Below are positions 6,953-64,000 of a DNA stretch of 64,000 nt, piece by piece. A model generated the notes under the pieces. It saw nothing but the letters and a program-made list of their open reading frames with translations, ran no database searches and was not told the origin of the DNA. Position numbers and translations under genes: made by a program. This DNA is from Gemmatimonadetes bacterium bin94 (lineage in GTDB: Bacteria; Gemmatimonadota; Gemmatimonadetes; Longimicrobiales; Gaopeijiaceae): NCBI GenBank assembly GCA_002238865.1, contig MPNE01000017.1:1-64000 (forward strand). Reading direction: 5' to 3'. Numbering within the stretch: position 1 is the first letter of the stretch; every line of letters starts with the position of its first letter.

Positions 6953-8188
6953 CTAGAACCGCCCTGCCGAGAATGCCCCCAACCCCACGCCCGGCTTCCC
7001 CTCCAGCATCAGCCCGGCGAGCGCCCACCCGCTGCTCGGACCCAGCGTGATGCCCAGCATCTGGTGGCCGGTGTTGACGTACACGTTCTCGTGCGACGGC
7101 AGCTTCCCCATCACGGGAAGCGAGTCCGGCACGACCGGGCGCATCCCCACCCAGGCGCGGCCTCCCTCCTTCGCCTCGGGTATGTCCACCTCGCGGCTCA
7201 CGATGCGTCGCAGCGACCGGACCCGCGCCGTGTCCATGCGGCGGTTGATCCCCGACAGCTCCATCGTTCCCGAGAAGCGCAGTGCACCCTTGAAGGGAGT
7301 CATGCCGATCTTGGCGCCGCCCAGGTAGAGCGGTTGGCGCAGCTGGTTCCGGGGCTGATCGATGGTGACCGAGTACCCTTTTCCGGCGGTCAGCGGAATT
7401 GGCCACCCCAGCATGCGGGTCAGGGAACCGGTATGCGCACCCGCCGCCAGCACCACGGCATCGACCGCCACCTCCTCCTTCGAGGTGACGATGGCCCTGA
7501 CACGCCCGCGCTCGCTCCTGAACCCCGTCGCCATCGTCTCTTCGTGCACCTCCACCGCACTCGCGCGCAGCGCCGCCCCCAGTCCCGCGGTCAGCGAATC
7601 AGGCCGCACATGGCGGTCCGCGCCCACGAAGAGTCCGAACCTGAAGCCCGGGCGGAGCATGGGCTCGCGCTCATACACCTCGGACTCGGTCAAATCGGTG
7701 CAGTTCGTCGCGCCGGCCGCCGTCACCAGCTTGACCTCCTTCTGCGCCGCGGCCGCCTTGTCGGAGTCGCGGAACACCATCAGCACCCCCGCCTCGTGGC
7801 ACTCGAAGTCCACACCTTCCGCGGCCAACTCGTCATAGCGCTCCATCGTGAACCGGTTGAGCGCCGCGATGGCAGCGATCCCACGCTTCTGATCGGCGTG
7901 GTTGCAGAAAGAACGGAACCGCATCAGCCACGGGGCCAGCCTTGGCAACGCCGAAGGCCTGATGTACAGCGGGCTGTCCGGCCGCAGCATCCAGCTGAGG
8001 GACTTCCATGTGAGCCCGGGCGCGGGCAGCGGGCTCGATATCGACGGGCAGACCCATCCCGCGTTGCCCCTGGAGCAGCCTGCGCCCAGGGTCCCGGACT
8101 CCACGACGACGGGGTCCGCGCCCATCTTCTTCAGGTACCAGGCGGTGGAAAGGCCGATGACCCCGCCACCCACGACCCCTACGCGCAT
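6953..8188 (-). CDS. FAD-dependent D-amino-acid dehydrogenase/oxidase (DAO family, DadA-like)
   Basis: 411 aa. The N-terminal dinucleotide-binding motif VGGGVIGLSTAWYL identifies the FAD-binding DAO fold. DadA-like features follow: CSRGNAGWVCPS, PLTAGKGYSVTI and the C-terminal NTGHQMLGITLGPSSGW. The expected reaction is oxidative deamination of D-amino acids to 2-oxo acids, probably feeding the respiratory chain. Its ATG overlaps the TGA of the D-aminoacylase gene by one base (8186-8190), so the deacylase product could pass directly to this enzyme. Exact substrate range cannot be read from sequence; sarcosine or glycine oxidase activity is an alternative. Confidence 0.88.
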   Translation of the reverse strand: MRVGVVGGGVIGLSTAWYLKKMGADPVVVESGTLGAGCSRGNAGWVCPSISSPLPAPGLTWKSLSWMLRPDSPLYIRPSALPRLAPWLMRFRSFCNHADQKRGIAAIAALNRFTMERYDELAAEGVDFECHEAGVLMVFRDSDKAAAAQKEVKLVTAAGATNCTDLTESEVYEREPMLRPGFRFGLFVGADRHVRPDSLTAGLGAALRASAVEVHEETMATGFRSERGRVRAIVTSKEEVAVDAVVLAAGAHTGSLTRMLGWPIPLTAGKGYSVTIDQPRNQLRQPLYLGGAKIGMTPFKGALRFSGTMELSGINRRMDTARVRSLRRIVSREVDIPEAKEGGRAWVGMRPVVPDSLPVMGKLPSHENVYVNTGHQMLGITLGPSSGWALAGLMLEGKPGVGLGAFSAGRF

Positions 8189-49666: not shown

Positions 49667-50682
49667 TGATCTACTCCCCTTTTGGGTGTGATAGCCGTGA
49701 TGACTGGGTACAAATCGGCAGTCATCACTGTGAATACTCTCCCACTATGTCCCACTACTGCTCTATTGGCATAATGTGGCAGTCTGTCGGTTACCACGTA
49801 TCGACCTGTGTTCAGGTTGTATTTGTCAATAACTCTGCCGCCGTACTTAGTGCCTCCGAATAGCACAAAAAGAGTGTCCCCGCGAACCGACAGGGATCGC
49901 CCCGATGATGGGGGCCGGGTCACCATTCGCGTCACTCTCGCGAGACCCTCCCTAGCCTGGCGCACTGCGGGGAATTCGGTAGCCTCCACATATGGATACA
50001 TTCCGACTACCGTGGCACCATCCAGCACTGCCCAGCCATTTCCGTACGCAAATCCAAACACCCACCTCTCGTCACTCCATGATACCGTCCGTCCTTGGTA
50101 CTGTACAAACGATAGATTGGCGAACCCAGCAGGCAGCACAACGCTTTGAACGCCCTGATCAGGATCCCAGACCCCAAGTGCAGGCACTTTTCCATGAAAT
50201 GCTACTTTGCCGTCGACAAGTGCAGACACGGAATGCAGCGTGCGGGCCGACAACTGGCTCTCATCGATCACGTCTCCGTTGGCGCTTATCGTTAGGATGC
50301 GCTGATTACCAGCATCACCAATTATAATGGAGCCATCGTCTTTGACGTCAAGGCTTCGAACATTCTTGATTTCCCCGGGTCCCTCACCGGCCTGTCCCCA
50401 AGACCAAAGCATCGCACCCTCGGCGCTGACGCGGTACACCTTCCGATTGTGATAGTCATAGAAAACCAATCCGCCGTCCCCATACGGACGCAGCATTGAT
50501 GGCATCGCCAACAGTGTATCGGAAGGTCCGCCCATCACCCATGCTGTATCGAAGACGGTGGCGGTAAATCTACGCTCAGCGTCAATGGGCAGAACGACCT
50601 GCGACGACGATCCAGCGGTCTCACCACACGCGACAATTAGTGTGAGCGTGAAGACAATACCAATATTTCTATGCTGCGGCAT
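49663..50682 (-). CDS. Six-bladed beta-propeller lipoprotein of the peptide locus
   Basis: 339 aa with a lipoprotein signal (lipobox-like LIVAC). Repeats such as WGQAGEGPGEIKNVRSLDV and GSIIIGDAGNQRILTIS mark a six-bladed propeller. It is more divergent and less GC-rich than the two propellers at 20157 and 31332. Its start overlaps the thioredoxin-fold gene by 14 bases. A role in binding or displaying the small peptides is an inference from the operon. Confidence 0.8.
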   Translation of the reverse strand: MPQHRNIGIVFTLTLIVACGETAGSSSQVVLPIDAERRFTATVFDTAWVMGGPSDTLLAMPSMLRPYGDGGLVFYDYHNRKVYRVSAEGAMLWSWGQAGEGPGEIKNVRSLDVKDDGSIIIGDAGNQRILTISANGDVIDESQLSARTLHSVSALVDGKVAFHGKVPALGVWDPDQGVQSVVLPAGFANLSFVQYQGRTVSWSDERWVFGFAYGNGWAVLDGATVVGMYPYVEATEFPAVRQAREGLARVTRMVTRPPSSGRSLSVRGDTLFVLFGGTKYGGRVIDKYNLNTGRYVVTDRLPHYANRAVVGHSGRVFTVMTADLYPVITAITPKRGVDQ

Positions 50683-51124
50683 TCGTCAGCGCCTCCACAA
50701 GGTCGTTCACACTGAGCCCACCTACGTTTAGTACGGCAGACACCTCGCCGGAAGGTGTTACTACAACAGCCAAGGGTGTGTTCCGGTAGCCCAAGTGGGT
50801 GAATACAGCGGCGGCGTGGGGCGACAGGGATTGATGAGGGAACACCTGGTTGGCAATGCTGATTGCCTCAGCATGGGATGATCCTCGGATGACTGCACCC
50901 CTTACGACGATACCGAGTCCATGAAGCTGCCTCGCTACGGCATCAATGGGAGATGAGGACGAAATACAGTCGGCGGGATTCCGAATGAACACCACGCCAC
51001 CGCCCTGCTCTGCAAGAGTGCGCCGAAGGCCTGCGAACTCACCCAGTCCGCGACCAGTCAGCACGTCAGCGGTGGCCAGAAGCGCGCCGCCGACCGTCAG
51101 CCCGATTATCGCGAGCACCCACAA
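50669..51124 (-). CDS. Membrane-anchored thioredoxin-fold protein, single Cys
   Basis: About 151 aa from a TTG at 51124; the frame is open up to 51358 and the true start is unclear. One membrane helix (WVLAIIGLTVGGALLATADV) precedes a thioredoxin-like fold: GGGVVFIRNPADCISSSSPI, with a lone Cys where CxxC is expected, and the cis-Pro-like loop RNTPLAVVVTPSGEV. A short ATG frame just upstream (MDISLRDRG) would join after a shift in a G-rich stretch, so a frameshift is possible. Together with the propeller it forms an operon. Confidence 0.6.
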   Translation of the reverse strand: MWVLAIIGLTVGGALLATADVLTGRGLGEFAGLRRTLAEQGGGVVFIRNPADCISSSSPIDAVARQLHGLGIVVRGAVIRGSSHAEAISIANQVFPHQSLSPHAAAVFTHLGYRNTPLAVVVTPSGEVSAVLNVGGLSVNDLVEALTNAAA

Positions 51125-51260
51125 GCGACCCGCCCCCGATCCCGCAAGGAGATGTCCATGTCGTAGGCCGTCTCCCTGGTGTTGGCGATTCTCGTATGGC
51201 CGGGCCAGGTCACCTGGTAGATGGCCCGGCCGCGTCAGATGAGGGGTTCGATCATCTAGA

Positions 51261-51294
51261 GAACAGGGCTCACCCGGAAAACGTGCAATCTCGG
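51261..51294 (-). repeat. Repeat, copy 1 (upstream of thioredoxin-fold gene)
   Basis: Minus-strand text GAGATTGCACG..TTCCGGG..GAG..CTGTT also occurs at 52881-52914. Read in one frame both copies give EIARF-x-x-E-x-C, with several synonymous differences between them. Confidence 0.65.
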
Positions 51295-51392
51295 TTCCCC
51301 GAACATCCTCTTCATTGAAGGGATCTTCGGATGTTCGAAGGGCCCCACCCCTGGTCACGATCTGGAACGAGGCGGTCAGGGCCTCGCTCAGA

Positions 51393-52169
51393 TCAACCCG
51401 GTTCCCCCAGCAGCCCCAGACACCCCTCCGCGCTCAAGGCCCCACCCCACCCCTCCACCACCCTCCCCAGCATCCCCGTCACGTTCGCGACCGCGAAGCT
51501 GATCCCGTTCAGGTTGCGCTCCACCGGCACACCCGGAATCGGCCTCGGGTACGGCGCGGCGGCCACCACCAAGTCGCGGCCCGCTCCCCCCCGCACCTCC
51601 ACGCACCCGCGCGGACAGTCCTCGTCCATCACCACCCCAACGGCTGCCGGCAGGGAGCCCGGCCACCACCGCTGCCCGTCGGCTTCCGCCGCCGCCACCA
51701 CCACGCCCCCCACCGCAGCCAGCCGCCCCACCGCGGCATCGAGCATCTCCGCGTGCTCTTCCCGGACCGTGCCCAGGCTCAGGTTCACCACCCGCGCCCG
51801 CCGCTCGGCCGCCCAGTCGATCGCGGCCACCAGCGCACGCACACTCGTCCGGAGCCTGTCCTCGAAGACGCGCACGGCGTACAGCTCCGCTCCCGGGGCC
51901 TTCTCCTGGATGGCGGCGAAGACCGCGGTTCCGTGTCCGATTCGGTCGACATGGTCCCCCGACACATCGCCCGTGAGGTCGATCCGCACCCCGCCGGCCA
52001 CCTTGCCCACATGCGGGTGTTCCGCGTTGACCCCGCTGTCGATCACGGCGATGGAGACGCCCCGGCCCAACAGGTCGCGCAGGGCGGGTGAATCCACGCA
52101 GATCCGTCCCGGGAACGGGGACTCGGGAGTGGGCTCGGTCATGACCAACACACCTATCTTGGGCTCCAT
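51393..52169 (-). CDS. Compact S8 subtilisin-like protease without signal peptide
   Basis: About 258 aa from ATG 52169 (GTG 52208 and ATG 52142 are alternatives). The catalytic triad is visible: Asp in AVIDSGVNAEHP, His in RIGHGTAVFAAI and Ser in NGISFAVANVTG. There is no signal peptide and no long prodomain, so it is probably cytoplasmic or works inside a complex. Subtilases of this kind mature modified peptides in some RiPP clusters. It directly follows the TlpA-like gene on the same strand. Confidence 0.85.
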   Translation of the reverse strand: MEPKIGVLVMTEPTPESPFPGRICVDSPALRDLLGRGVSIAVIDSGVNAEHPHVGKVAGGVRIDLTGDVSGDHVDRIGHGTAVFAAIQEKAPGAELYAVRVFEDRLRTSVRALVAAIDWAAERRARVVNLSLGTVREEHAEMLDAAVGRLAAVGGVVVAAAEADGQRWWPGSLPAAVGVVMDEDCPRGCVEVRGGAGRDLVVAAAPYPRPIPGVPVERNLNGISFAVANVTGMLGRVVEGWGGALSAEGCLGLLGEPG

Positions 52170-52188
52170 GTCGGGGTACTGGAAAAGT

Positions 52189-52779
52189 CTAACCCACGGG
52201 GGAGGCACCGGTCGATGCGCGGATGGGAGGCTTCCCCCGCGCCAGGATCATCTCACGAAGTTTGGAGCCCTGTCCCTCCGCCACTACGCGGCCCGCTCCA
52301 TCCACCGCGAAAACCCAGGGCGTCCGTTGTGTGAGGGCCAAACTGACTCTCAAGGAGGGATCCCTCTCAACGGACCCGACCCGGACCGGCCAGTCGACCT
52401 CCTGGGCGTAGGCGATCGCTGCCGCGAGCGGCCCGGGCGAAATGGCGAGAACGGATTGCTCCTCAAGATCAGCCGCGTTGAGCCAGGACGACCACTCCGA
52501 GGCGATCCGACGAGAGTGCTCGCAGGTCGGATCGAACACCAGGACGAGGGTGGGTTTCCCGGCTCCGAGGCTGGATACGGTGCCGTCTGCGAGCCTGACG
52601 GATATCGACGACAAATCGGAGCCAACCGGCGTCGCTTGAAGGTGATCCCGGTTACCAAGCGTTCGAACCCCGAGGCTGACCGTCTGGGCAGCGGCCAGCA
52701 GGGCCAAGACCACAAACAAGGCCCTGAGGGCCCCGCTACTTCCGGCACGGGCAGATCCACGATCGCGCAGCAGTGTCAC
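52189..52779 (-). CDS. TlpA-like thioredoxin-fold membrane protein, single Cys
   Basis: 196 aa from GTG 52779. One N-terminal membrane helix (LRALFVVLALLAAAQTVSLG), then a redoxin fold: KPTLVLVFDPTCEHSRRIAS carries TCEHS in place of CxxC, and QRTPWVFAVDGAGRVV is the cis-Pro loop. The start overlaps the stop of a 12-codon micro-ORF (GTGA). A monothiol redox or peptide-binding role is inferred; the end is 20 bp before the subtilase start. Confidence 0.8.
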   Translation of the reverse strand: MTLLRDRGSARAGSSGALRALFVVLALLAAAQTVSLGVRTLGNRDHLQATPVGSDLSSISVRLADGTVSSLGAGKPTLVLVFDPTCEHSRRIASEWSSWLNAADLEEQSVLAISPGPLAAAIAYAQEVDWPVRVGSVERDPSLRVSLALTQRTPWVFAVDGAGRVVAEGQGSKLREMILARGKPPIRASTGASPVG

Positions 52780-52814
52780 AGGCAGCTCCGAATCTCATTG
52801 TTGACGTTGGTCAC
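52776..52814 (-). CDS. Possible 12-codon micro-ORF coupled to the TlpA-like gene
   Basis: GTG 52814 with AGGAG upstream encodes MTNVNNEIRSCL and ends in a TGA that overlaps the next GTG start. The same stop/start overlap is used by real gene pairs throughout this window. It may be a leader peptide for translational coupling, or chance. Confidence 0.4.
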   Translation of the reverse strand: MTNVNNEIRSCL

Positions 52815-52880
52815 TTGAGTCTCCTGGCGCACGGATCCCCGGTTGGACGCGGTCGGGGATTCAATGCAGTCACGGTCAGA

Positions 52881-52914
52881 AAACAGTTCTCATCCCGGAA
52901 CCGTGCAATCTCGC
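52881..52914 (-). repeat. Repeat, copy 2 (upstream of TlpA-like gene)
   Basis: Partner of the repeat at 51261-51294. The frame continues to a stop at the codon after ARRLK and spells EIARFRDENCFLTVTALNPR, but has no usual start codon. It could be a coding remnant, a leader or a shared control element. Confidence 0.6.
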
Positions 52915-53019
52915 CCTTTGCACGTTTCCCTCCTGTGAGCTGTTATCTCAGTGTTGGAGGGGCTCTCAGAGGATCCCCGTTGTGACCAGCAAGCCCATAA
53001 ACTCAGGAGCACGAAGAGA

Positions 53020-53214
53020 TTGCGACTCGCGACGGTGCTACTTATCCTGCTGAATCTGCTTTTGGCAACGGCTCATTTATCCCACCGGCGATCGACCAGG
53101 GACGCGACGCGGGACTGCTGTCGGGGCGAAGGGCCGGAAGCGTATTGTTGCCGCGATTGTTGCGTGAATGGGAGGCTCTGTCGCTCCGATGGCGACTGTC
53201 AAAGCGCCTACTAA
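53020..53214 (+). CDS. Membrane-anchored or secreted 8-Cys peptide
   Basis: 64 aa from TTG 53020, with AGGAG ten bases upstream. A hydrophobic N-terminus (LATVLLILLNLLLATAHL) is followed by a short basic linker and a Cys-rich end with pattern CC-X8-CC-X2-CC-X5-C-X5-C, eight Cys in about 28 residues. That density suggests four disulfides or a metal site. The spaced CC pairs recall granulin/knottin motifs, without proof of relationship. AAGGAGG for the next gene overlaps its stop. It faces the TlpA-like gene across about 200 bp. Confidence 0.65.
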   Translation: MRLATVLLILLNLLLATAHLSHRRSTRDATRDCCRGEGPEAYCCRDCCVNGRLCRSDGDCQSAY

Positions 53215-53229
53215 GGAGGCAGCTGACCA

Positions 53230-54045
53230 TTGGGGAGTCCAACGATGACCATGTGGCCTGAGCGACCCAAGATACGTGTCGCGGTCGCGGTCGCACGGGC
53301 GGTGCTGCCGTGGCTTCTGCTATTCGTCGCGGCACGACCCCTGGCTTCTTTTCACTGGCCCCCCTTCGAGTGGTCGGGAGGTTTGCTTAGCTGGCTGTCG
53401 TTCGTCGTGGACGACACCGCGTTCGTCCTTCCATTCCTGCTATTCGCGGGCGGTGTAGCGGTGAGGGATACTTTGGGATACTCTCGGCAGGTCATCCGCG
53501 CCATCGTCCTGGTGGGCGTCGTCGCAGGCACCATGTGCTACCTCCTGTCAGCTTGGGCGGCACCTGCAGTCGAGCATCGAGCGCTGGCTCGCCTTGGGTC
53601 CGAGACCGAAACCGCACGGCAGTTCGGCGCCCAAACGCCGGTGGGTGTTCTCCGGAATCTGCGGTTCGTAGAGGCGAACCCGCCTGACGAGTACACCCTG
53701 AGGGTGAGCAGTCCCCATCGCTTCCCTCCGAACCTGCTCCTCTGGCAACTGCATCGCCCTCCAGCCATGGCCGTCTTCGGCTTCATCAATGTGGTCCTTG
53801 GAGTGATCGCCGCTCAGTTGACCGTCGATCTCAAGCGCGGGCGACGACGAAATGCCCGCTTGGCGATCGGCCTCCTGGGCGCGATCGCTTTCCTCGCGCT
53901 TGAGCGCTTTGTCGAGCCCACGCAAGCCTTTCTCGAGAGTGGGGCGCTGCGCTCCGGCATCGTCGCCGCCTGGGCTCCCATGTCGTTCCCCCTGGCCGAG
54001 GGTCTCCTGCTGTTCCATCTCGTGCGAGGACGTCGGTGGGAATGA
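53230..54045 (+). CDS. Polytopic membrane protein, LptF/LptG-like in part
   Basis: 271 aa from TTG 53230 (ATG 53245 is alternative), with AAGGAGG ten bases upstream. About six membrane segments, for example AVLPWLLLFVAARPLASF, FVLPFLLFAGGVAV, AIVLVGVVAGTMCYLLSAW and AVFGFINVVLGVIAA. Layout (two helices, soluble middle part, further helices) recalls half of an LPS-exporter permease, but the match is weak. Its TGA overlaps the sigma-factor start. Export of the Cys-rich peptide is a guess from position. Confidence 0.65.
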   Translation: MGSPTMTMWPERPKIRVAVAVARAVLPWLLLFVAARPLASFHWPPFEWSGGLLSWLSFVVDDTAFVLPFLLFAGGVAVRDTLGYSRQVIRAIVLVGVVAGTMCYLLSAWAAPAVEHRALARLGSETETARQFGAQTPVGVLRNLRFVEANPPDEYTLRVSSPHRFPPNLLLWQLHRPPAMAVFGFINVVLGVIAAQLTVDLKRGRRRNARLAIGLLGAIAFLALERFVEPTQAFLESGALRSGIVAAWAPMSFPLAEGLLLFHLVRGRRWE

Positions 54046-54623
54046 CCATCGACAAGAACGACACGGAAATCGACTTCGAAGCCTTTCGGCGTGGCGATCC
54101 AAGAGAATTCGAGAAGGTACTGGACCGCGTCTCTGGCCTGGTTGGGGACATCGCGGCTTTGTACACAGACAACCCCGACGACCAAGAGGACGTATACCAG
54201 GAGATATGCGTCCGCATTTGGGGGCAGCGGCACCATTACGATGACCGGGGCGTGCTAAGTTCGTGGGTCTACAAGTTGGGGCATCGCCACGGCTTCAACT
54301 GGCGTGCGAAGAGGGTGTCTCAGAACGGGACCATCGCCCGGTACTCGGTCGGGCACGTCCCCCGCGAGCACATGGGCAGGCTAGTGGGTGACCCGCGGAG
54401 GCTATTGAACTACAATCAATTCCTGGATGCCCTGGAGAGGGCCTTCGAAGATCTCCCACCGCGCCAGTGGGAGGCGTTCGAGCTGGTCGTTCTGGAGGGA
54501 AACAGCCCCAAGCAAGCAGCACACAAGTTGGGCGTGACGGACACGACCGTCCGGTCCCACGTGCGCCATGTCAGGGCGAGACTTCGGGAACTACTTGAGG
54601 AGTGCAAAGATGACCTGTCCTGA
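54042..54623 (+). CDS. ECF-type RNA polymerase sigma factor
   Basis: 193 aa from ATG 54042, overlapping the membrane-protein stop. Region 2 includes DNPDDQEDVYQEICVRIWGQ and SSWVYKLGHRHGFNWRAKR; region 4 is LPPRQWEAFELVVLEGNSPK with GVTDTTVRSHVRHVRARLRE. It should direct transcription of a small set of genes, probably this peptide locus. It overlaps the anti-sigma gene by 14 bases. Confidence 0.92.
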   Translation: MTIDKNDTEIDFEAFRRGDPREFEKVLDRVSGLVGDIAALYTDNPDDQEDVYQEICVRIWGQRHHYDDRGVLSSWVYKLGHRHGFNWRAKRVSQNGTIARYSVGHVPREHMGRLVGDPRRLLNYNQFLDALERAFEDLPPRQWEAFELVVLEGNSPKQAAHKLGVTDTTVRSHVRHVRARLRELLEECKDDLS

Positions 54624-55074
54624 TCTATCCGACCTCGCGCGAGTCGGCACTCCGAGAGCGGACCCCGCCGTAGTGGAGCACCTCCAGACATGCCATTCCT
54701 GTTGGCTGGACTGGCAGATTCAGCAGGGTGCGCGCTACTTGCACACCGGCATGCGGAACGATCCGCAGGACTTGAACCAAAGGGTAATGGCCGGCATCAC
54801 CGAAATGGCGCGGCAGTCGGACGGACCCGCCGGGTGGGGCCAGCTGAGTCTTTTCGGGTTACTGACTGCGGTGGCGCTCTTGATCTTCTTCATCATGAGG
54901 ATGGGCGGCATGGCTACGGTGGCCACTGGTAATATGGCGATCCTTGCGGGCGCAAGCGCCATCGCCGCCATCGTGTACTGCTGGAGGCGAGATCGGGAAG
55001 CGGACTCTGGCGCGGGATCGCTGACGGAGCCCGACCAGACTTGGGGAATGGGCCGCGATGGGCGCGCTCGGTGA
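54610..55074 (+). CDS. Anti-sigma factor with zinc-binding HxxxCxxC motif
   Basis: 154 aa from ATG 54610 with GAGGAG upstream. VEHLQTCHSCWLDWQIQQGA carries the HxxxCxxC of ZAS-domain anti-sigma factors. Two membrane segments follow (LSLFGLLTAVALLIFFIMR, NMAILAGASAIAAIVYCW). It should hold the ECF sigma inactive at the membrane until a signal arrives. A decayed partial copy is at 48511. Confidence 0.88.
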   Translation: MTCPDLSDLARVGTPRADPAVVEHLQTCHSCWLDWQIQQGARYLHTGMRNDPQDLNQRVMAGITEMARQSDGPAGWGQLSLFGLLTAVALLIFFIMRMGGMATVATGNMAILAGASAIAAIVYCWRRDREADSGAGSLTEPDQTWGMGRDGRAR

Positions 55075-55577
55075 TCTGGCTTTTCGCGAGATCCTCCCGT
55101 GGTCCCGGTGTACTCGGTCAGCGGACGGGGTTCCCCTCGCCAGCGGGGGCAGCACTCGCTTCGTGCCGTGGCCGGTGTCAGCGGGGCGTTCGGTGACGTT
55201 GGTTAGCGGGCTCAACGAGCGCCGGGCTGTCGGGCGGGAGGGATTACGTTGCCGAACGCCTTTGCTGCCAGCGATGGGCCCGCCGCGAGGCTCCGGGAAG
55301 GTCACTTCCGCTGGGTCGTCGACGCGACTTCCGGTCCTGGCAACCGCCCCAACGTCTGAGCTGACCGTCCGACTGGTCGAACTGGTGCGCCTTATAAGAC
55401 TGCCTGGTGCCCCGATGCTCGCCGCGCGTCGGGGCCTCTTGCCTGTGCAGCATGCGCATTCGAGCGGCTCTCAAGGGCCATGCGCGTAGCTTTCGGACTC
55501 CCGACGAAGTTATGCCATCGCACCCACCACCGGACCTAGGTCGAACGGATCGTGGCCCGGGCCCAACTGGGAGCAGT

Positions 55578-55746
55578 AGGCTGCTCCGCCAGGTGTGGGG
55601 GCGGCGGAGATCGGACGACTCCGACCGCGTCCGCACCGCCGTCAAGAAGCTCCGGCAGATGCTCGGCGACGACGCGGCCGCGCCGGCGTACCACCTTCAC
55701 CGAGCGCGGCGTCGGCTACAGCTTCGGAGACCCCGGCACGGCATAG
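55578..55746 (+). pseudogene. Remnant of an OmpR/PhoB-type winged-helix domain
   Basis: LLRQVWGRRRSDDSDRVRTA then VKKLRQMLGDDAAAPAY is the end of an OmpR-type DNA-binding domain. Near 55690 the frame shifts by one base and continues TFTERGVGYSFGDPGTA, the usual last strand, before a TAG. No receiver domain is found upstream. Confidence 0.75.
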
Positions 55747-55914
55747 GAGACCGCCGGGTCCACGGGAAGGGTGTTCATCCACAGGTGCGTTCGCTCCGCC
55801 ACCCTGCGGAACGCCGCTTGTCGGTACTGGCCGGGGGCAGCGCTGATGGATTGGTGATGAGACCATCGTATCTTCGGGGACCTCAGCCCCCCCAAGCCCC
55901 GAGGACCACCCCTC

Positions 55915-56064
55915 ATGACGACCATCGAGCAACTCCGCGCCGTGGCCCGAGAACTGGCTGGCGACGCTCGGGACCATCACCGCCGCCGACTCCCCGCGCA
56001 GGCGCATGTCCGCCGCGTAGCCGCCAAAGCGGTGATGAAGCAAGCGGATGCCATCCAACTGTAG
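55915..56064 (+). CDS. Possible small charged protein
   Basis: 49 aa: TTIEQLRAVARELAGDARDH, RRRLPAQAHVRRVAAKAVM and KQADAIQL. Helical and Arg/Ala-rich, with only a weak GAGGA upstream of ATG 55915. No family recognised; may be a chance frame. Confidence 0.35.
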   Translation: MTTIEQLRAVARELAGDARDHHRRRLPAQAHVRRVAAKAVMKQADAIQL

Positions 56065-56210
56065 GACGCCATGTTCGACGATCCGCCGACGGGGTACGGC
56101 TGACCCCAAGGCAGCGGGCAACTGGTAGTTTGGCCCTTCTCCGAAGGCCCGTTACCTTTGCTTCGGGAGTCTCGGGAAATCCATATCTTGCCCCCAACCC
56201 GGGAAAACGG

Positions 56211-56937
56211 ATGGCAAAGAAAAAGAAGCCACGGCAAACGAGCGGACGAAAAGCAATCTTTGAGCGGGTACGCCGGGGCACGCTGGCGTTCGTCCACGTC
56301 CAGTCGAAGAAGAATGGCGACGAAAGCAAGCTAACGGTTGTCGGGTCTGGATTTCCGATCAGGGACGCGCGGGGTATGGTGTTGACAGCGCGGCATGTGC
56401 TCAAACCCCAAGATAGTACCAAGACCCCCACCCACGTGATGATGGTGAGGCGCGCCACGCCGAACAACGGAGCGGTGGACTACGAGGCCAAAATCCTCGT
56501 GCTGGCAGACGCCCTCAACGTCACTACCGCTGACAACATGGACTTCGCAGCAGTAGAGTTCAACCATACGTTTCCGCCGGACAGCGTGTTGACCATAGCT
56601 AAGCGAAACGGTGCCCTGGGCGGGACAGCATGTGGGTGCTAGTGGTTGGCCGCAGGTGACAAATCGACTCATGAAGGAGCCCGTTCAAGTACCGTCGATC
56701 CTGGCGGGAGTGATCAGTGCCGTCTACCCGCACCCGGATCTTCCCTCGGTTCGTATCGGGGCCTACTTGACGCAGCTACCTGTCCACGGAGGGCACAGCG
56801 GAGGACCCGTGTTCGACATCGCTTCGGGTAGGGTCCTTGGGGTGGTATCTGGGCGCGTGAAAGGCAACTCTGGAGTCCGCGTTGGCTTGACGAGAGTGGT
56901 TCCGCTTGTGAACATGACCATTGCCCGACCACCCTGA
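56211..56937 (+). pseudogene. Trypsin-like serine peptidase, frameshifted
   Basis: The first part (from ATG 56211) has a Lys-rich start, then VVGSGFPIRDARGMVLTARH with catalytic His and NMDFAAVEF with catalytic Asp. The frame ends in a stop at 56642. The next frame continues from about 56611 with AGQHVGASGWPQVT and the catalytic Ser in PVHGGHSGGPVFDIASGR. All triad residues survive, so one shift near 56610 (mutation or sequencing error) separates an otherwise normal ~240-aa HtrA-like or S1 protease domain. A small gene follows 18 bp later. Confidence 0.8.
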
Positions 56938-56955
56938 TGACTAGGAGAGAACCTG

Positions 56956-57147
56956 ATGGCGAACCCTAACCGTAGCGAATCGAAGCCCGTTAAGCACACG
57001 CCGGTGACCGTCAATCTCGGCATCAGTCGCCGCACCGCTGATCTGACCGAGGCCGCCATAGAGGCTGCGACGGGAGTTCCACGCGAGCAACAGGTCGGGT
57101 ACGTTGCCCCTTCGGAGCCCCAGTCGAAGGGAACCTCCCGAGGTTGA
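56956..57147 (+). CDS. Small protein behind the trypsin-like peptidase
   Basis: 63 aa: MANPNRSESKPVKHTPVTVN, LGISRRTADLTEAAIEAATG and VPREQQVGYVAPSEPQSKG. Polar, with no signal or Cys. AGGAGAG sits just upstream at normal distance. The frame stays intact although its neighbours are broken. Probably co-transcribed with the peptidase, perhaps as a partner or substrate; no family recognised. Confidence 0.5.
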   Translation: MANPNRSESKPVKHTPVTVNLGISRRTADLTEAAIEAATGVPREQQVGYVAPSEPQSKGTSRG

Positions 57148-57495
57148 ACCGCTAGAGGTCCCGGCTTCTGGCACCGCCACGATGGTTGCGCCCGCGCGAC
57201 CACGCCGAAGACACGCGCATCGTATTGGGAGGACAAGTTCCGGAAGAACGTCGTCCGGGACCGCAGGAACCTTGCGGGGATCATTGCCTGCAAATCGTCT
57301 ACCGGTTCCGCGGTAGTAGACCTGGACCCGGGCGAGCCACTCCTTCTCGACTCCAGTCGTCGTCGAGGAACTGTGAACCCGGCTCGACGTTCGTTCCCGC
57401 GACGAACCGCTACCTCGGTATCGCGCGACGCAAGGGTCGTACTGAGTGGATAACTGTCAGGGGCGCGAACGCACCGGCGCGTGCCGTCGCCCTGC
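57148..57495. other. Intergenic stretch with a Vsr remnant
   Basis: 348 bp between the small gene and the leftward HNH gene. Apart from the Vsr-like piece at 57163-57273, I see no start site, repeat or stable hairpin. Confidence 0.5.
57163..57273 (+). pseudogene. Fragment of a Vsr (very short patch repair) endonuclease
   Basis: 37 codons read GFWHRHDGCARATTPKTRAS then YWEDKFRKNVVRDRRNL. FWHxHxC, TPKT and YW..KF..N..RD...N are core Vsr motifs. Stops lie just upstream, and the usual WE-containing end is missing. Vsr repairs T:G mismatches made by cytosine-5 methylation, and a cytosine methyltransferase gene lies 4 kb away. Confidence 0.75.
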
Positions 57496-58221
57496 TCAGT
57501 AGTCGCTCCAATTCACCTCGGTCGCGAAGTATTCGGAGAGCACGGACCTGACGACTATCCCGCAGCGCTGCTGCACGCGGAACCGGTAGACACCGTCCTG
57601 TACGATGACCCAGCCGTCACGCATGTCCTGCCCGGTGAGCCCGCGCGTCATCATTCGACTGCCCACTTCGGGCGAACCTGCCAGTTCCTCGACTACGCCG
57701 TCGTATTCGAATTCCTCGCGCTCAGACGCCGACATCGCCGTTAGGGTCTGGGTCCAGACGCGTGTCGCTTCACCCAGCATCGGTTCGCCGTATTCGTAGC
57801 AGACGTGGCCGCGCGCGTTCTTCACCACGATACGCTCCACTCTCTTCTTTTCGAGCTTCCAGACGCAACGCGTCTCGCCGGCAATGGTCCGGTACTCCGT
57901 CTTCGATCGCTCGATCCTCGCGCGCAGTTTCTTGTGGCGCTGTAGTGCCCGCGCGATCTTGGCGTCCGAGTGGCGCTCCGGGTCCGTGGAACCAATGAGC
58001 ACGCAGTGCAGGAAGAGGCGCAGGTACTCCTCGTCCGGCGAAAACCTCTTGTTGCAGGCGACGCAGGTGTCGACGACGGGAAGGTTCTCCGGGTAGGGCT
58101 TGCGCAGGAGAGCCTTGGACGGCACGTGGTCCCGGTTGGTGGCCACGTCCCCGAGCTGATCGCCGCACTGGATGCACCACGCCTTCTGCCGTTCGTCCAC
58201 GAATTCTCTGATTTGGTCCAT
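57496..58221 (-). CDS. HNH-like zinc-binding endonuclease-type protein
   Basis: 241 aa. The N-terminus has CIQCG, RDHVPSKALL and CVACNKRFSPDEEY, two CxxC pairs around an Asp-His, a layout seen in HNH-type nucleases. The rest is basic and helical with ARIERSKTEYRTIAGETRCV and then strands. It starts at ATG 58221 and is divergent from the GHKL/methyltransferase operon. It could be the nuclease part of a modification-dependent system, but its activity is untested here. Confidence 0.75.
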   Translation of the reverse strand: MDQIREFVDERQKAWCIQCGDQLGDVATNRDHVPSKALLRKPYPENLPVVDTCVACNKRFSPDEEYLRLFLHCVLIGSTDPERHSDAKIARALQRHKKLRARIERSKTEYRTIAGETRCVWKLEKKRVERIVVKNARGHVCYEYGEPMLGEATRVWTQTLTAMSASEREEFEYDGVVEELAGSPEVGSRMMTRGLTGQDMRDGWVIVQDGVYRFRVQQRCGIVVRSVLSEYFATEVNWSDY

Positions 58222-58921
58222 CCGTCGCTTCTGGGCTTGATTGGTCTTTGGTGAGCTTCGCCCCCCCGCGCGGCATCCCCGTACGATAACGCACCAGTCA
58301 CGAGGCGGGCGATGTTAGCGCGACCCAAGGCGCCGTCCCCAAGCGGGCAACCGAGTCTTGCCAGCCCGGCCATCGTTGACGTTATTGACTGGTCATGAAC
58401 CTCATGTCCCTCGTTCGATTGCTGCGCGCCGGACTCCCGGTCGCCATGCTATCCGGCTCGGCGGGCGTCACGCGGCCGGACCCGCCCTCGACCGCGTGCA
58501 CCGTCGGACAGCCAACCTCTACGCGTGGCCTTCTACGCGTTCTTCGCGCCCGCCGACTACAGCGCCGACGAGGACTCACATCGCCGGGGTTCGGCGCGCC
58601 TCCCGACTCGAAGCATGGCTCCAACCACCCTTGGGTCGGCCCGCCGAACGGGTGCACGCGTCGGACGAAGGAGGTCAGGCTGTCTGATCTGCAGCTAAGC
58701 GAGTCGACCTTGACTTTGACTCACCGTCATGCCACCGCTTCGTGCGAAGGGTCCGGGCGGTCATCGCTCGGACGCCCGCAGGAACTCAGCAGCGTTCAGG
58801 TGGGTCCTTTGACAGCGACCGACGCTCTGTCCCGAGACTCCGCCGAGGGATCCTCGCAGCGAGAAGGAGGAGCACCGACTTTGGGCTCATACGTCAGCCA
58901 CTTGAAGGAGCAATCCAAAAC
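58222..58921. other. 700-bp region before the GHKL ATPase gene
   Basis: No complete gene found. Around 58480-58580 two frames give protein-like text (DRVHRRTANLYAW, then FYAFFAPADYSADE after a shift), so a decayed gene is possible. The control region of the operon must lie here; AAGGAG at 58902 serves the ATG at 58922. Confidence 0.5.
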
Positions 58922-60289
58922 ATGGTAGTGAACACACGTGGGGACAAGGTCGATGCAAGCCCGACCAAGGGGTTCTTTGTCAACATGATCACTCGCGATA
59001 TCACCTTGGAAGACACGATTCTTGACTTGATCGACAACAGTATAGACGCCGCTTGGCACAACGAAGGTGGCCAAGCGATGGAGCTTGCCGACACCGTGGA
59101 CCTCTCCGCCTACCGGATCTCCATCTCTGCGTCGCCTGAGCGGTTCTCGATCAGGGACAATTGCGGGGGCATGACCCTTGATGACGCCGTGGAGCATGCC
59201 TTCAGTTTTGGCAGGCGCGGCTCACAAGAGCTGGAGGAGTACAGCATTGGCGTCTATGGCATCGGCATGAAACGGGCGGCATTTAAGCTTGGCACGAACA
59301 TACGGGTGCGTAGCACCTATACGGATTCCGATGGAGCCAGGGAGGCGTTTGCAGTACCTATCCTTGTGGACGAATGGATGAAGAACGACAACCCACCTTG
59401 GGATTTCGATATAGATGAGGACCACGAATTGGATGACGATGGTGTCGAGATCGTTGTCGAGAGTCTGAGGGAAGGCACCAAAGCCGAGTTCGGGAATCCT
59501 GCGTTCATCCGTAACCTTAGACGCATGATCGCCCGAGACTATTCGCTTCACCTGAATCGCGGGCTCAAGATCGCGGTTGGTGGAAAAGCCGTCGAGGGAT
59601 TGCCCATCGAGCTTCGCCAGGGCGGCGGCTTCGCGCCGGTGCGGGTCGAATACAAGGATCAAGCAGGCGAGGACGAGGTCATGGTGGAGATCATCGGGGG
59701 CATGGCCGCGCCGCCGCCAGAGAGCATCGACCCGGATGACGCTAAGGATGGCGACAGAAGGTTTGGATGGTACGTCGCGTGCAATGGACGCATTGTGCTC
59801 GCTGCAGACAAGACCACGGTCTCCGGATGGGGTACCTCGGATTGGCCGCAGTGGCACCGGCAGTACTCTGGATTCATCGGGATCGTTCTCTTCACCGCAG
59901 CGAATGCCGCCGACCTTCCGCTCACGACCACCAAACGGAGCGTCGATGCGTCTTCGGGAGTCTACTTGCGTGCGCGCCGTCGCATGCGGGACATCTCCAA
60001 AGAGTGGATCGCTTATACGAACGTCAGAAAGCAAGCTCTGGCCGAAGCGAAGAGAAGAGAGGCGGTTCCCGAGGCCGTGCCGATCCAACACGTGAAGAAA
60101 CGACTTTCGATCGCGCTCCCGAAACTCGTTCGGGTAAAGACTGAACCTGTGGCCAACGTAAACTACTCGGTTCCTGTATCTAAGATGAAGCGCCTCGCGA
60201 CCGAGCTCGGAAACGTAAACATGACGTACCGCGACGTGGGATTGAAGTCCTTCGACTATACGTACGACGATCACGTCGGAGACGGCTGA
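58922..60289 (+). CDS. GHKL-family ATPase (HSP90/MutL/MORC-like)
   Basis: 455 aa from ATG 58922 with AAGGAG ten bases upstream. The Bergerat ATP-binding fold is clear: N-box EDTILDLIDNSIDAA (residues 30-44), G1 box RDNCGGM (78-84) and G2 box YSIGVYGIGMKRAAFKLG (107-124). A distal TTKRSVDAS segment supplies the catalytic Lys loop. The C-terminal part has no other recognised domain. Prokaryotic MORC-like GHKL ATPases are known to occur beside restriction-modification genes. The stop overlaps the next start by one base (TGATG), so the proteins are made together. Confidence 0.9.
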   Translation: MVVNTRGDKVDASPTKGFFVNMITRDITLEDTILDLIDNSIDAAWHNEGGQAMELADTVDLSAYRISISASPERFSIRDNCGGMTLDDAVEHAFSFGRRGSQELEEYSIGVYGIGMKRAAFKLGTNIRVRSTYTDSDGAREAFAVPILVDEWMKNDNPPWDFDIDEDHELDDDGVEIVVESLREGTKAEFGNPAFIRNLRRMIARDYSLHLNRGLKIAVGGKAVEGLPIELRQGGGFAPVRVEYKDQAGEDEVMVEIIGGMAAPPPESIDPDDAKDGDRRFGWYVACNGRIVLAADKTTVSGWGTSDWPQWHRQYSGFIGIVLFTAANAADLPLTTTKRSVDASSGVYLRARRRMRDISKEWIAYTNVRKQALAEAKRREAVPEAVPIQHVKKRLSIALPKLVRVKTEPVANVNYSVPVSKMKRLATELGNVNMTYRDVGLKSFDYTYDDHVGDG

Positions 60290-61233
60290 TGGCTTCATTC
60301 GACATTGTGAACTACAGTCTCAGGCCCAGCAAAGGCATTCAGAGACAGATCATCTTCGACGGCATCCGCATGCTCAAGTCGCGGCTGGAGTTAAGCGATA
60401 TGATCTATGTCGGGCTTGGTTCCATCTGGTTCTCAGATTTCGTTCAGGCTCACAAATCGCTCGACATACGCCGGATGGTGTCCATCGAGGCGGATGATAC
60501 TGGTTATTGTCGCGCACGCTTCAATAAGCCATATGCAACCGTGCAGGTGCGACACGGTCATTCGTCGGCAGTTCTCGCCGAGCTCCACGATGACGATGAC
60601 TGTCAAGCCCATCCGTGGGTGGTATGGTTGGATTATGATGGACGTCTAAGCGAAGCTATGGTCGGTGACATTCGGGCGGTCATCGAAAGGTCCCCTAGCG
60701 ACACTATACTCCTGACGACGTTCAAAGCGCGTGCGACAAGTTACGGGCGCCCAGAGCAGAGAAAGGAACGGCTGCGCGACCTGCTTGGAGATGTCGTCCC
60801 GGACGACCTTTCCAAGGCGGGATGCAAAGGGGATCGGATGCAGGAGACGCTGGCCGATTTGGTCACGGATTTCATGAAGGCGATTGGAGTGGAGTCGGCG
60901 AGACCAGGTGGATTCATACCGGCGTTTCGGATTATCTACAAGGACACGATGGAAATGGTGACGGTCGGCGGAATCGTCCCGGCCCCAGGGAACGTGAGCA
61001 GTGCTACAGACGTCATTAGCGACGAACGCTGGCGATGTCGCCCGCAAAGGCGAATCGTCGCTCCGCTTCTCACGATTCGGGAAGCGGTCACCTTGCTGTC
61101 GTTGCTCCCGCGTGACGACGAACTCACACGGGAACAGGTCCGCGTGTCGGGCTTCGACCTCGAACAGGAGCAGATCGAGGCATTTGAGCGCTACTACCGA
61201 GAGTATCCGATGTTCGCCCAGATTGTCGCGTAG
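60289..61233 (+). CDS. Rossmann-fold putative O-methyltransferase-like protein
   Basis: 314 aa. The N-terminus FDIVNYSLRPSKGIQRQIIF is followed by YVGLGSIWFSDFVQAHK, a glycine-rich loop that could bind S-adenosylmethionine, and VSIEADDTGYCRARFNKP with an acidic residue for the ribose. HPWVVWLDYDGRLSEAM follows. The layout fits a family annotated only as putative O-methyltransferase. No DNA-methyltransferase catalytic motif (PPC or DPPY) is present, so the substrate is unknown. It is fused by overlap to the ATPase gene and lies 105 bp before the cytosine methyltransferase. Confidence 0.75.
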   Translation: MASFDIVNYSLRPSKGIQRQIIFDGIRMLKSRLELSDMIYVGLGSIWFSDFVQAHKSLDIRRMVSIEADDTGYCRARFNKPYATVQVRHGHSSAVLAELHDDDDCQAHPWVVWLDYDGRLSEAMVGDIRAVIERSPSDTILLTTFKARATSYGRPEQRKERLRDLLGDVVPDDLSKAGCKGDRMQETLADLVTDFMKAIGVESARPGGFIPAFRIIYKDTMEMVTVGGIVPAPGNVSSATDVISDERWRCRPQRRIVAPLLTIREAVTLLSLLPRDDELTREQVRVSGFDLEQEQIEAFERYYREYPMFAQIVA

Positions 61234-61338
61234 AGCCGGTGACCCGATATGCGACTGACGTGATTCAGAGAGGATGAAACCTCCGGTGCCCTCGCTGATG
61301 GACCCTCGGACCGCGGCAAGGCCAGGTGTGAGTCGGTC

Positions 61339-62415
61339 ATGAGGGTGGTCGATCTCTTTTGTGGAGGCGGTGGGCTGTCACTCGGAGCCCATCAGGCCGG
61401 TTTTTCGATCGCTGCCGCAATCGACAACGACCCGATCTTGGTATCTTCGTACGCATACAACTTTCCCGACACAAAACTGGTGCTTGAAGATGTGACGAAA
61501 CTCGATGGCGAAGCCGTTCGGGAGGCCGCGGGTGGGCAAGTACACGCGATCGTCGGCGGCCCACCGTGCCAAGGGTTTAGTGCAATCGGTAGGCGTAACC
61601 CGGACGATCCGCGGCGTCGCCTGTTGGACGATTTCTTCAGGATCGTGGGAGAGGTTCAACCCGTGTTCTTCGTGATGGAGAACGTACTTGGTCTTGGCTA
61701 TGCAAACGCTAGATATATCCTTGATGAGGCCCTCCGACACACCAAAGGATACGGAACCTTGGGTCCCGTCGTGTGGAATGCCGCAGAGTTCGGAGCGGCA
61801 ACGAATCGTGCCCGGCTCTTCGTCGTAGGGATTCATGAGGACTACGGTGACCCGTTGAAGGCTGAAGACTTAGACTTTCTTAAGCAGCCGGCCGCGTCGG
61901 TTCGAGCTGCCATCGTAGACCTCGAGAATGCTTCAGCGCTGGCGGATGAGGACGACTTCGATACTTGGCGCATCACGCGTGTCGGCCGGCCGACTGATTA
62001 CGCTCGCGCCCTCCGGTCCGCGGATGGGCATTTTACGGGACACCGGAAAACCCGCCACTCGGAGTCGGTTGCACGTCGATTCGCGGGCGTTTCGGCAGGG
62101 GGCGTCGACCGGATCGGACGGCATCCGCGTTTGTCGTGGTCCGGACAGAGTCCCGCAATTCGGGCTGGGACGGGAGCTGATCGAGGTTCCTACCAGGCAG
62201 TACGGCCTATACATCCACAACATCCCCGCGTAATCACCGTTCGGGAAGCAGCCCGTTTGCAGGGGTTCCCGGACCGCCACCGCTTTCATCCGACGATCTG
62301 GCACTCGTTCAGGATGATCGGAAACAGCGTATCTCCGATCATGGCACGGGCCATATTCCAAGGGATCAGCAACAGGCTCCGCGAGTCCGGCCATCAAGGC
62401 CAAAGCGCTGAGTGA
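61339..62415 (+). CDS. DNA (cytosine-5-)-methyltransferase
   Basis: 358 aa. Motif I DLFCGGGGLSLGAHQAGF, motif IV GGPPCQGFSAIGR with catalytic Cys near residue 77, motif VI FVMENV, motif VIII (TNRARLFVVG), motif IX (REAARLQGFPD) and motif X (IGNSVSP) are all present. The target-recognition region is short (GGVDRIGRHPRLSWSGQSPA and RAGTGADRGSYQAVRPIHP). Target sequence cannot be predicted. Same strand as the ATPase and methyltransferase-like genes; no dedicated restriction enzyme is adjacent. Confidence 0.93.
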   Translation: MRVVDLFCGGGGLSLGAHQAGFSIAAAIDNDPILVSSYAYNFPDTKLVLEDVTKLDGEAVREAAGGQVHAIVGGPPCQGFSAIGRRNPDDPRRRLLDDFFRIVGEVQPVFFVMENVLGLGYANARYILDEALRHTKGYGTLGPVVWNAAEFGAATNRARLFVVGIHEDYGDPLKAEDLDFLKQPAASVRAAIVDLENASALADEDDFDTWRITRVGRPTDYARALRSADGHFTGHRKTRHSESVARRFAGVSAGGVDRIGRHPRLSWSGQSPAIRAGTGADRGSYQAVRPIHPQHPRVITVREAARLQGFPDRHRFHPTIWHSFRMIGNSVSPIMARAIFQGISNRLRESGHQGQSAE

Positions 62416-62509
62416 TTCCAGGGCGCCTTCCCGTGGCTGGCTCCGGTGTGGGTCGCCACTCGTACTTCGCTTACCGGTTGACGATACCCTCAGGATAGGA
62501 GAATCAGCG

Positions 62510-62773
62510 ATGACCAAACCAGACTCGCCAACCTTGTACTGGGCTGGCGGACCGTTTCATGTGTTCCTGCAATACCCTAGTAACATGTCGGATAGCGTTG
62601 TCAATGGTGCGATAGCCAGTCTTGACGCCTTCCGCTCAGATTGCCAAAGGCAGTTCTGTGCATTCTCTGGGACAGTCAACGGCCGCATCCTTGCTTCCAG
62701 TACATGGAAACCCCCGACACCCGTAACGATAAGATGGCGTTGCTATCGTGCAGTGCTGATTGAACTTGCGTGA
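62510..62773 (+). CDS. Small protein of unknown family
   Basis: 87 aa: TKPDSPTLYWAGGPFHVFLQ, YPSNMSDSVVNGAIASLDAF, with two Cys and a Trp/Arg-rich end. AGGAGAAT precedes the ATG. It follows the methyltransferase by 94 bp on the same strand and may be a further, possibly truncated, member of that operon. I recognise no domain. Confidence 0.45.
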   Translation: MTKPDSPTLYWAGGPFHVFLQYPSNMSDSVVNGAIASLDAFRSDCQRQFCAFSGTVNGRILASSTWKPPTPVTIRWRCYRAVLIELA

Positions 62774-62828
62774 TTCCTTGTCGTGATTCGGGCCTCAGGT
62801 ATTCTTTACCGCACTTGCACAGTCCGGA

Positions 62829-64000
62829 TCAACCCAACAGATGTGGCAAATCCGTTTTGAGTCTTGACGACAGCGGATGCGTTGGGAACAATCGTATCGC
62901 TTCTTTCCAAATCGACACGGCAGCTGTGTGGTTTCCAGAATTCCAGTAGGCACCGCCGAGGTTGAACCATGCGCGATCGTACCCTTCATCCAGCGCCAAA
63001 GCCTGCTTGTAAGCGTCGATGCATCCGTGGACATCTCCGATTCCTTCGCGGGCGACAGCTAGCTGAAACCAACTCATAGCGTCCGGTTGATGCTCAGTCG
63101 CTTGTGGCAGCAACACGGCGATGGCTTCCTCATACCGATGCAGAAAGTTCAGCGCCGTACCTAGGCAATAGCCGTATTCATTCGGCGACAGCTGAAAGGC
63201 TCTGCGAAAGCACGTCTCGGCCTCCTGCCAGTCTTCCGCCATCTGGGCCCAGTGCCCGGCACGATCCCAAAGTAAGGCCGCGTCCGGGTCTCCGTCAGCG
63301 GCTAAGGTCTCGGCCGCTTTTCTGAACCGTTCGTAGTCCCATCCGGTGCGCTCACCGCGATCGTGAAGGTAATAGACGCAAAGGAGTATCTCCTTCCTCG
63401 CTGGAAGATCGTCCCTGAACTCCTCTAGGTACGCGCCCCAGAATGAGATCGAGAACTGCGTGGCCTCGACAGATGATTTGCCGTATATGGACACCAGTCT
63501 TGCGCACCATGGCCATACCCATGCCGCCGAAGGCGCACCGTGAAGTAGTGCGCGAACCTCCCGAATAGCCTCCCTAGTCCTTCGTTGCCTGAACAAGATC
63601 TCGGCGCGCCAACCCTGCACGGCCAGCAAGGTTCCGGCAGAGCCCCTAGGCCATACAATCGCGTCCAGATGGTCCAAGGCGCGGTCGAGATCGGCATGCT
63701 TGTGTCTGTAGTGCCAAAGGCCTAGCGCGAAATGTGCTTCTGCAAGGTTTGGATCGAGCTCCAGCGCCCGCTCGTAAAGCGATCGGGCCGCATCGGGGTG
63801 GTTCAGCTTCTCCAGAGCCGTCCCCAGATTCTTGCTGCACCGTGCGGCAGCGCCCTTGGACTCGTCTAGAAGGAGCAGGGCCGAATTGTAGGCATCCCTT
63901 GCCTTCTTGAACTCCTTGAGTGCAAGCCACCCGTTGCCAATGCTGTAGAGGACCGAGCCTGGGGAGCTTTGGCCTCCATGGATGGTGTTGTGTAAGGCGT
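62829..64000 (-). CDS. TPR-repeat protein, 5' part beyond the window edge
   Basis: The frame is open from the right edge to a TGA at 62829-62831, about 390 codons. TPR units are plain: NLGTALEKLNHPDAARSLYE, RALELDPNLAEAHFALGLWH, NLGGAYWNSGNHTAAVSIWK. The middle part (EEFRDDLPARKEILLCVYYL) is non-repeat helix. It would act as a protein-protein scaffold. A TTG at 63677 could be an internal start, but the TPR pattern continues upstream, so the gene extends past 64000. It converges with the methyltransferase operon. Confidence 0.88.
   Translation of the reverse strand, partial: ALHNTIHGGQSSPGSVLYSIGNGWLALKEFKKARDAYNSALLLLDESKGAAARCSKNLGTALEKLNHPDAARSLYERALELDPNLAEAHFALGLWHYRHKHADLDRALDHLDAIVWPRGSAGTLLAVQGWRAEILFRQRRTREAIREVRALLHGAPSAAWVWPWCARLVSIYGKSSVEATQFSISFWGAYLEEFRDDLPARKEILLCVYYLHDRGERTGWDYERFRKAAETLAADGDPDAALLWDRAGHWAQMAEDWQEAETCFRRAFQLSPNEYGYCLGTALNFLHRYEEAIAVLLPQATEHQPDAMSWFQLAVAREGIGDVHGCIDAYKQALALDEGYDRAWFNLGGAYWNSGNHTAAVSIWKEAIRLFPTHPLSSRLKTDLPHLLG

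Follow-up and report, generated by a model that had tools for sequence, protein, structure and literature searches.

A MORC-type ATPase, a Methyltransf_35 partner and a cytosine-5 methyltransferase: a candidate defence cassette in a Gemmatimonadota genome and in phages

Described MORC-type systems and the bin94 locus

MORC proteins keep transposons silent in animals and in plants, and the analysis of gene neighbourhoods led in 2008 to the prediction of their bacterial ancestors (Iyer, Abhiman and Aravind 2008, PMC2292703). Here we analyse a three-gene cassette of Gemmatimonadetes bacterium bin94 (assembly GCA_002238865.1, contig MPNE01000017.1, positions 1-64000; this stretch of 64,000 nucleotides is referred to as the window). 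It consists of an ATPase with GHKL and S5 domains of the MORC type (58922-60289, + strand, 455 aa), a protein of the Pfam family Methyltransf_35 (PF20553) with a Trm1-like Rossmann S-adenosylmethionine (SAM) methyltransferase fold (60289-61233, + strand, 314 aa), hereafter the partner, and a DNA (cytosine-5) methyltransferase (m5C methyltransferase; 61339-62415, + strand, 358 aa), the predicted self-marking enzyme. The cassette recurs in phages and defence islands across unrelated bacteria, and it is probably an immune system that has gone unrecognised and that distinguishes self from foreign DNA by methylation. The available text of PMC2292703 describes restriction-modification neighbourhoods of prokaryotic MORC and paraMORC genes that likewise feature GHKL and S5 ATPases, the MORC motif, m5C, Vsr and HNH genes and lateral mobility. 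The same text stresses superfamily II helicases, present in ~70% of neighbourhoods, whereas the window locus has none, and it names no Methyltransf_35 partner, which is here near-constant.

The closest known design is the module formed by HEF_HK and Response_reg_2 with an m5C gene (PMC8011034), in which a paraMORC-like ATPase has a tightly linked Rossmann-like partner and is often accompanied by an m5C methyltransferase. The partner in that module is the REC-like PF19192 (Response_reg_2), whereas that of the window has a methyltransferase fold, and the two are different families. No match to PF19192 was found in the genome that holds the window, and a kinship between the partner and Response_reg_2 was rejected: three proteins of 528-608 aa look REC-like and, like the other open reading frames (ORFs) at those three sites, were unmatched by the ATPase and partner profiles; we retain the resemblance as an analogy. 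Two anti-phage systems also contain GHKL ATPases. VcSduA (Shedu type I-D, paraMORC3; PMC12137116), whose activity against phages was established by experiment, has the nuclease DUF4263 fused to its ATPase, whereas none of 64 homologues of the window ATPase gave a Pfam match to this C-terminal PD-(D/E)XK domain or to any other nuclease; a conserved acidic cluster is also absent from them, and the idea of a nuclease hidden in the C-terminus was discarded. MzaB is the GHKL ATPase of the multi-gene system MZA, and its model scored the window at 14.6 bits against a curated cut-off of 850.

Type I DISARM stands in another relation to the cassette. In 23 loci the ATPase-partner pair is embedded in the operon of this system, flanked by DrmMI and DrmA; most of these loci also have m5C and Vsr genes upstream. 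The window lacks DrmA, DrmB, DrmC and DrmD, and positions 50000-64000 hold no ORF of the size of DrmA or DrmB. In the available part of a structural paper on DISARM (PMC9142583), the pair is not among the named components, and 'additional auxiliary genes' are mentioned. The presence of MORC and paraMORC genes in restriction neighbourhoods is already known, and so is the anti-phage action of paraMORC3 with its fused nuclease (PMC12137116). In the open-access literature we found no description of the pairing with Methyltransf_35, of its presence in type I DISARM or of a nuclease-free trio in phage hotspots, and it is a real possibility that the form without a nuclease is novel. Nor did we find there an experiment on a bacterial MORC proper, although there is one on the related paraMORC3 VcSduA.

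The ATPase, its partner and the m5C gene

All three ORFs of the trio are open. The ATPase stop overlaps the start of the partner gene, as described in the initial annotation, with one base shared between TGA (60287-60289) and ATG (60289). After a gap of 105 bp follows the m5C methyltransferase gene, as had been described, with matches to PF00145 (E 5e-56), TIGR00675 and the PADLOC model MTase_II. By these matches it qualifies as the DNA methyltransferase of a type II restriction-modification system with a predicted sequence specificity, and it is the sole PF00145 match found in the genome.

The ATPase (HATPase_c_3, E 9e-13) has every Bergerat-fold box that had been attributed to it: the N-box DLIDN, DNCGG, GVYGIGMKR and, in the S5 domain, the lysine of TTTKR, all invariant or nearly so in the 64 homologues; the lysine finger K338 is invariant. 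The general base of the GHKL N-box is Glu in most relatives; at this position (D35 in the window) 98% of the homologues have Asp, a replacement that may tune ATP turnover. The S5 domain also carries, at one position in 59 of the 64 ATPases, the published motif GhXhhpXXRhl, which the available text of PMC2292703 treats as defining MORC (0.34 matches expected from shuffles; none in 122 unrelated control proteins). In the window it reads GWYVACNGRIV (residues 282-292), and the MORC-like nature first suggested for this protein is thereby borne out. Four GHKL ATP-binding motifs, the basic finger residue of S5 and the S5 motif together place it among the prokaryotic MORC ATPases. In its AlphaFold2 model (predicted local distance difference test, pLDDT, 91.3) the GHKL and middle domains were aligned by Foldseek to TRAP1/Hsp90, SMCHD1 and MORC3. 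PADLOC 2.0 models matched neither the ATPase nor the partner at E up to 1, and neither protein was assigned a family by PADLOC and NCBIfam.

Four pair-bearing loci encode, next to the m5C gene, another and longer GHKL ATPase of 546-610 aa that is extended at its C-terminus (L029:6369-8117, L048:6828-8468, L057:1021-2853 and L070:11593-13338); one of the extensions weakly matches PADLOC PD-Lambda-5_A. We read these second ATPases as paraMORC-like, and since all four also match the MORC motif, that motif may be broader or less exclusive than published.

The partner scored 296.8 bits against PF20553 (E 2.6e-88; Pfam gathering cut-off 27), a family matched by all 71 partner homologues and annotated only as 'putative O-methyltransferase'. 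Its AlphaFold2 model (pLDDT 93.6) is a Rossmann methyltransferase. The closest solved fold is Trm1 (3axs; Foldseek E 3.5e-8; VIA Z 16.8, the next family reaching 13.9), the tRNA guanine-26 methyltransferase; the alignment covers 222 residues with a root-mean-square deviation of 4.0 and 10% identity. Yet there is no match to Trm1 by sequence or family. Searched against the sequences of the Protein Data Bank, the partner profile retrieved one chance match and the single sequence none, and membership in the Trm1 family was rejected, PF02005 being unmatched in the genome although the model detects Trm1 in control genomes. The invariant residues of the partner are Y9, R12, K15, R19, Y40, G42, G44, D50, F51, E67, R75, W113, D115, D219, M223 and E265. 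They include an N-terminal motif YxLRPxKxxxR and the features of a SAM site, namely a GxG loop, Glu67 after beta-2 and a W-x-D that ends beta-4, mostly as WLDY (Y116 is conserved in 91%). As the GxG loop, Glu67, W113/D115 and the N-terminal motif are all invariant, the partner looks competent to bind SAM. The initial annotation had found no DNA-methyltransferase catalytic motif in this protein; the classical motif is indeed absent, but an intact-looking SAM site is present.

Loci were fetched with the middle protein from contigs representing one genome per species and from viral contigs, and more were found among phages, plasmids and a sample of genomes of the phylum. Because the middle protein was the query, it is present in every locus by construction, and the associations with the ATPase and with m5C genes are the independent observations. 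In 110 of 117 loci (57 of 63 once redundancy at 70% is removed) the gene directly ahead of the partner gene, on the same strand, is that of the ATPase, which is beyond what chance would give; the two are most often separated by gaps of -4, -1 or +3 bp. Pairwise distances of ATPase and partner are strongly correlated (r=0.868 over 57 divergent loci; none of 2000 permutations as high), and those of partner and m5C methyltransferase only weakly (0.254 over 51 loci). From this tight and this weak co-divergence, the pair looks like the inherited core and the m5C gene like a partner that is swapped. The m5C genes nevertheless keep close to the pair. In the non-redundant set, 54 lie within 5 kb of it and 2 further away, and of 41 chromosomal loci that are complete and non-redundant (P2-like prophages and DISARM excluded), 37 have one nearby. 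Had the pair rarely occurred near methyltransferases, the defence proposal would have been refuted on the terms of the initial annotation; these 37 loci and all 21 P2-like prophages described below indicate the opposite. The closest relatives of the window enzyme (59-66% identity) come from L008-L012, where the three-gene order is identical.

Some loci depart from this arrangement. At L038:7763-8575 the pair has no m5C gene and the gene of an N6/N4-type DNA methylase lies just upstream, while at L034:3368-8599 (Paenibacillus) the gene upstream of a pair without m5C encodes a protein of 1744 aa in which a HerA-like domain was recognised. L050:6533-13626 holds two ATPase-partner pairs in facing orientation around a single HNH gene and a single m5C gene, as if these were shared. 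On a symbiotic plasmid of Sinorhizobium meliloti (L006:5671-10816), a transposase-like ORF (7965-9647) separates the ATPase from a remnant of the partner, and this copy is therefore probably broken.

Phage cargo, nuclease neighbours and the genomic island

The first three genes of the Pseudomonas filamentous phage PfAC20, a Pf inovirus, encode the ATPase, a 'hypothetical protein' and a cytosine methyltransferase; the paper on that phage counted the last of these as an incomplete system (PMC11878078). Between their portal and replication genes, 21 P2-like prophages have exactly the ATPase and partner genes and an m5C gene convergent with them; the P2 site between the replication endonuclease and the portal protein is a defence hotspot that houses tin, old and other systems (PMC9519451). 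The 3' ends of the m5C and partner genes overlap there by ~50 bp in a fixed antisense arrangement (L097:10944-10993 and the 20 other P2-like prophages). None of these 21 copies contains a member of the nuclease families that we scored. PHROGs lists the ATPase as phrog_20521 and the partner as phrog_19983, both as of unknown function.

Outside P2-like prophages and DISARM, a scored nuclease (Vsr, PD-(D/E)XK, HNH_2 or the HNH type of the window) accompanies the pair in 22 of 41 loci. PADLOC matches link the PD-(D/E)XK protein of L014 to a type II restriction enzyme (E 1e-132) and the HNH protein of L019 to an HNH restriction enzyme; HNH_2 occurs in L019 and L086, and a NERD nuclease in L058. Such varied partners, taken with the nuclease-free prophage trio, suggest that the nuclease is exchangeable and missing from the most compact form. 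The P2 hotspot, the accessory region of Pf, type I DISARM and type II restriction neighbourhoods are locations that lend weight to the defence role first proposed for the bin94 genes.

In the window, a divergent HNH endonuclease gene (57496-58221, - strand, 241 aa) is the probable nuclease partner. Its product gives a weak match to Pfam HNH_5 and retains CxxC, RDHVPS and CxxCN; the intergenic stretch between it and the ATPase gene (58222-58921) is, by position alone, the presumed promoter region of both. The family is rare, with one other strong homologue in the 249-genome sample of the phylum and 10 matches among 72,556 plasmids, and the viral contigs searched with this protein yielded no relatives. 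Of the 80 genome loci retrieved with the middle protein, 5 hold a homologue, against 0.002-0.006 expected from a background drawn from plasmids and the phylum of the window, an enrichment of ~1000-fold. The HNH gene of L050 begins ~9 bp past the partner stop, and ATPase, partner, HNH and m5C genes follow one another there in this order on one strand. The homologue of L026 is next to the m5C gene, that of L070 lies divergently beside the ATPase, as in the window, and those of L060 and L066 are near DISARM-type copies. Of six plasmids looked at, four have m5C, Vsr, Z1 or ATPase genes around it. The earlier suggestion that the divergent gene is a possible nuclease is strengthened by these homologues, and we consider it somewhat probable that it is a fourth member of the cassette and its nuclease in the window. 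It is also a candidate for the cognate endonuclease of a type II restriction-modification system, which the 21 prophage copies lack.

The GC content of the trio (0.565-0.594) is below that of the window (0.662). PF20553 was found in 2 of the 249 genomes of the phylum sample, and the partner of the window is 29% identical to the other copy in that sample and up to 56% identical to proteobacterial copies. A subtilase gene (~51.4-52.1 kb) is conserved in the genomes of the genus (22 others compared), in none of which did the flanking tetratricopeptide-repeat gene or the HNH gene have a full-length match. Most simply, the region of the trio would be a horizontally acquired island. Between the subtilase and the HNH gene, a trypsin-like protease appears to be split across overlapping ORFs (55407-56937, + strand; N-terminal half 55407-56642, C-terminal half 56611-56937), through a frameshift, a pseudogene or an assembly error; the first of these ORFs has a weak Trans_reg_C match upstream of its protease part. 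Scans of the window found no Rfam families and no tRNAs.

Proposed function and alternatives

A role in defence is very likely in our estimation, and it is likely, with somewhat less assurance, that m5C serves as the mark of self. We favour, as the more probable overall account, a horizontally acquired, restriction-like, m5C-guarded and ATP-driven system against phages and plasmids with a fixed Methyltransf_35 partner. The argument is one from sequence: it draws on which genes are present, on their obligate pairing and co-divergence, on m5C and nuclease partners that can be exchanged, and on location in defence hotspots. The m5C methyltransferase would mark the host genome, and the MORC-type ATPase would be held in a fixed complex together with its DNA- or SAM-binding partner, the Methyltransf_35 protein. 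Known GHKL-S5 relatives dimerise into an ATP-driven clamp. The complex would then act on DNA free of the mark, and this DNA would be inactivated, in the window most likely through cutting by the divergent HNH nuclease and elsewhere through cutting by exchangeable PD-(D/E)XK, HNH_2, Vsr or DISARM nucleases. As no recognised nuclease accompanies the trio in 21 prophages, part of the job would have to fall to the pair, which might clamp or compact DNA, transfer methyl groups or recruit a host nuclease. Candidate effector actions are DNA looping, proposed for MORCs (PMC2292703), topological trapping, reported for a eukaryotic MORC (PMC8277788), a second methyl mark, and methylation of RNA or protein; any particular one of them is less likely than not. 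With an m5C-guarded MORC/Methyltransf_35 core, the pairing, the exchange of m5C and nuclease genes, the insertion into DISARM and the carriage by phages would all be accounted for.

Several observations weigh against this account. The best-defined copies, P2-like and Pf, are without a recognised nuclease, so cleavage would not be universal, and 4 of the 41 complete loci have no m5C gene nearby. The HNH gene of the window is on the opposite strand, 700 bp from the ATPase, its GC content of 0.625 is higher than that of the trio and closer to that of the host, and restriction islands that lack the pair also contain homologues of it; for these reasons it is perhaps a mere neighbour and not a component. 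A free-standing trio that needs no nuclease is worth stating in its own right: the MORC clamp and its partner would recognise DNA lacking m5C and silence it by trapping, compaction or a second mark, with nucleases and DISARM as optional additions. We regard this as possible, though rather doubtful.

Carriage by temperate and filamentous phages, in copies without a nuclease, would also suit a function in anti-restriction or DNA modification, in which the m5C enzyme and a second methyltransferase shield the DNA of a mobile element from host restriction while the ATPase helps to load the enzymes; the cassette would then guard its carrier and not attack other elements. Two methyltransferase folds among three genes agree with it. 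The pair, however, also sits inside type I DISARM and beside type II restriction enzymes, the prophage copies occupy a hotspot known for defence genes, and the pair is tightly linked to the ATPase but loosely to m5C, which makes such shielding unlikely. We judge it similarly improbable that the cassette acts by abortive infection, with the ATPase sensing foreign or unmodified DNA, the Trm1-like protein halting growth through methylation of tRNA, rRNA or protein, and m5C as the immunity mark. Copies without a nuclease do need an effector, the nearest fold is a tRNA-guanine methyltransferase with a higher Z than the next family, and second GHKL ATPases occur in four loci, one with the PD-Lambda-5_A-like extension; but a substrate cannot be read from a fold shared with an RNA methyltransferase, similarity to Trm1 is undetectable in sequence, and many copies have DNA nucleases beside them.

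The weak co-divergence of m5C with the pair, and the four complete loci without it, could instead mean that an orphan m5C methyltransferase stands beside an unrelated housekeeping or regulatory unit of two genes, brought together by nothing other than clustering in defence islands. This is very improbable given that exactly these three genes, with overlapping m5C and partner ends, are kept in 21 prophages with little spare room, that the same trio occurs in an inovirus, and that the pair is scattered in its distribution and missing from almost all relatives.

The m5C-guarded defence cassette remains our preferred reading. Under it, the data suggest that a Pf phage whose restriction system was reported as incomplete (PMC11878078) holds a complete cassette, a role is proposed for PF20553, and attention is drawn to a gene pair within type I DISARM. 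The trio is compact, portable by phages and nuclease-free in a defence hotspot, and because it is small, mobile and without a recognised nuclease, the action of a MORC ATPase on unmarked DNA becomes testable with three genes. If it is true that such a trio silences without a nuclease, it would be a bacterial counterpart of the silencing of methylation-marked elements by eukaryotic MORC proteins.

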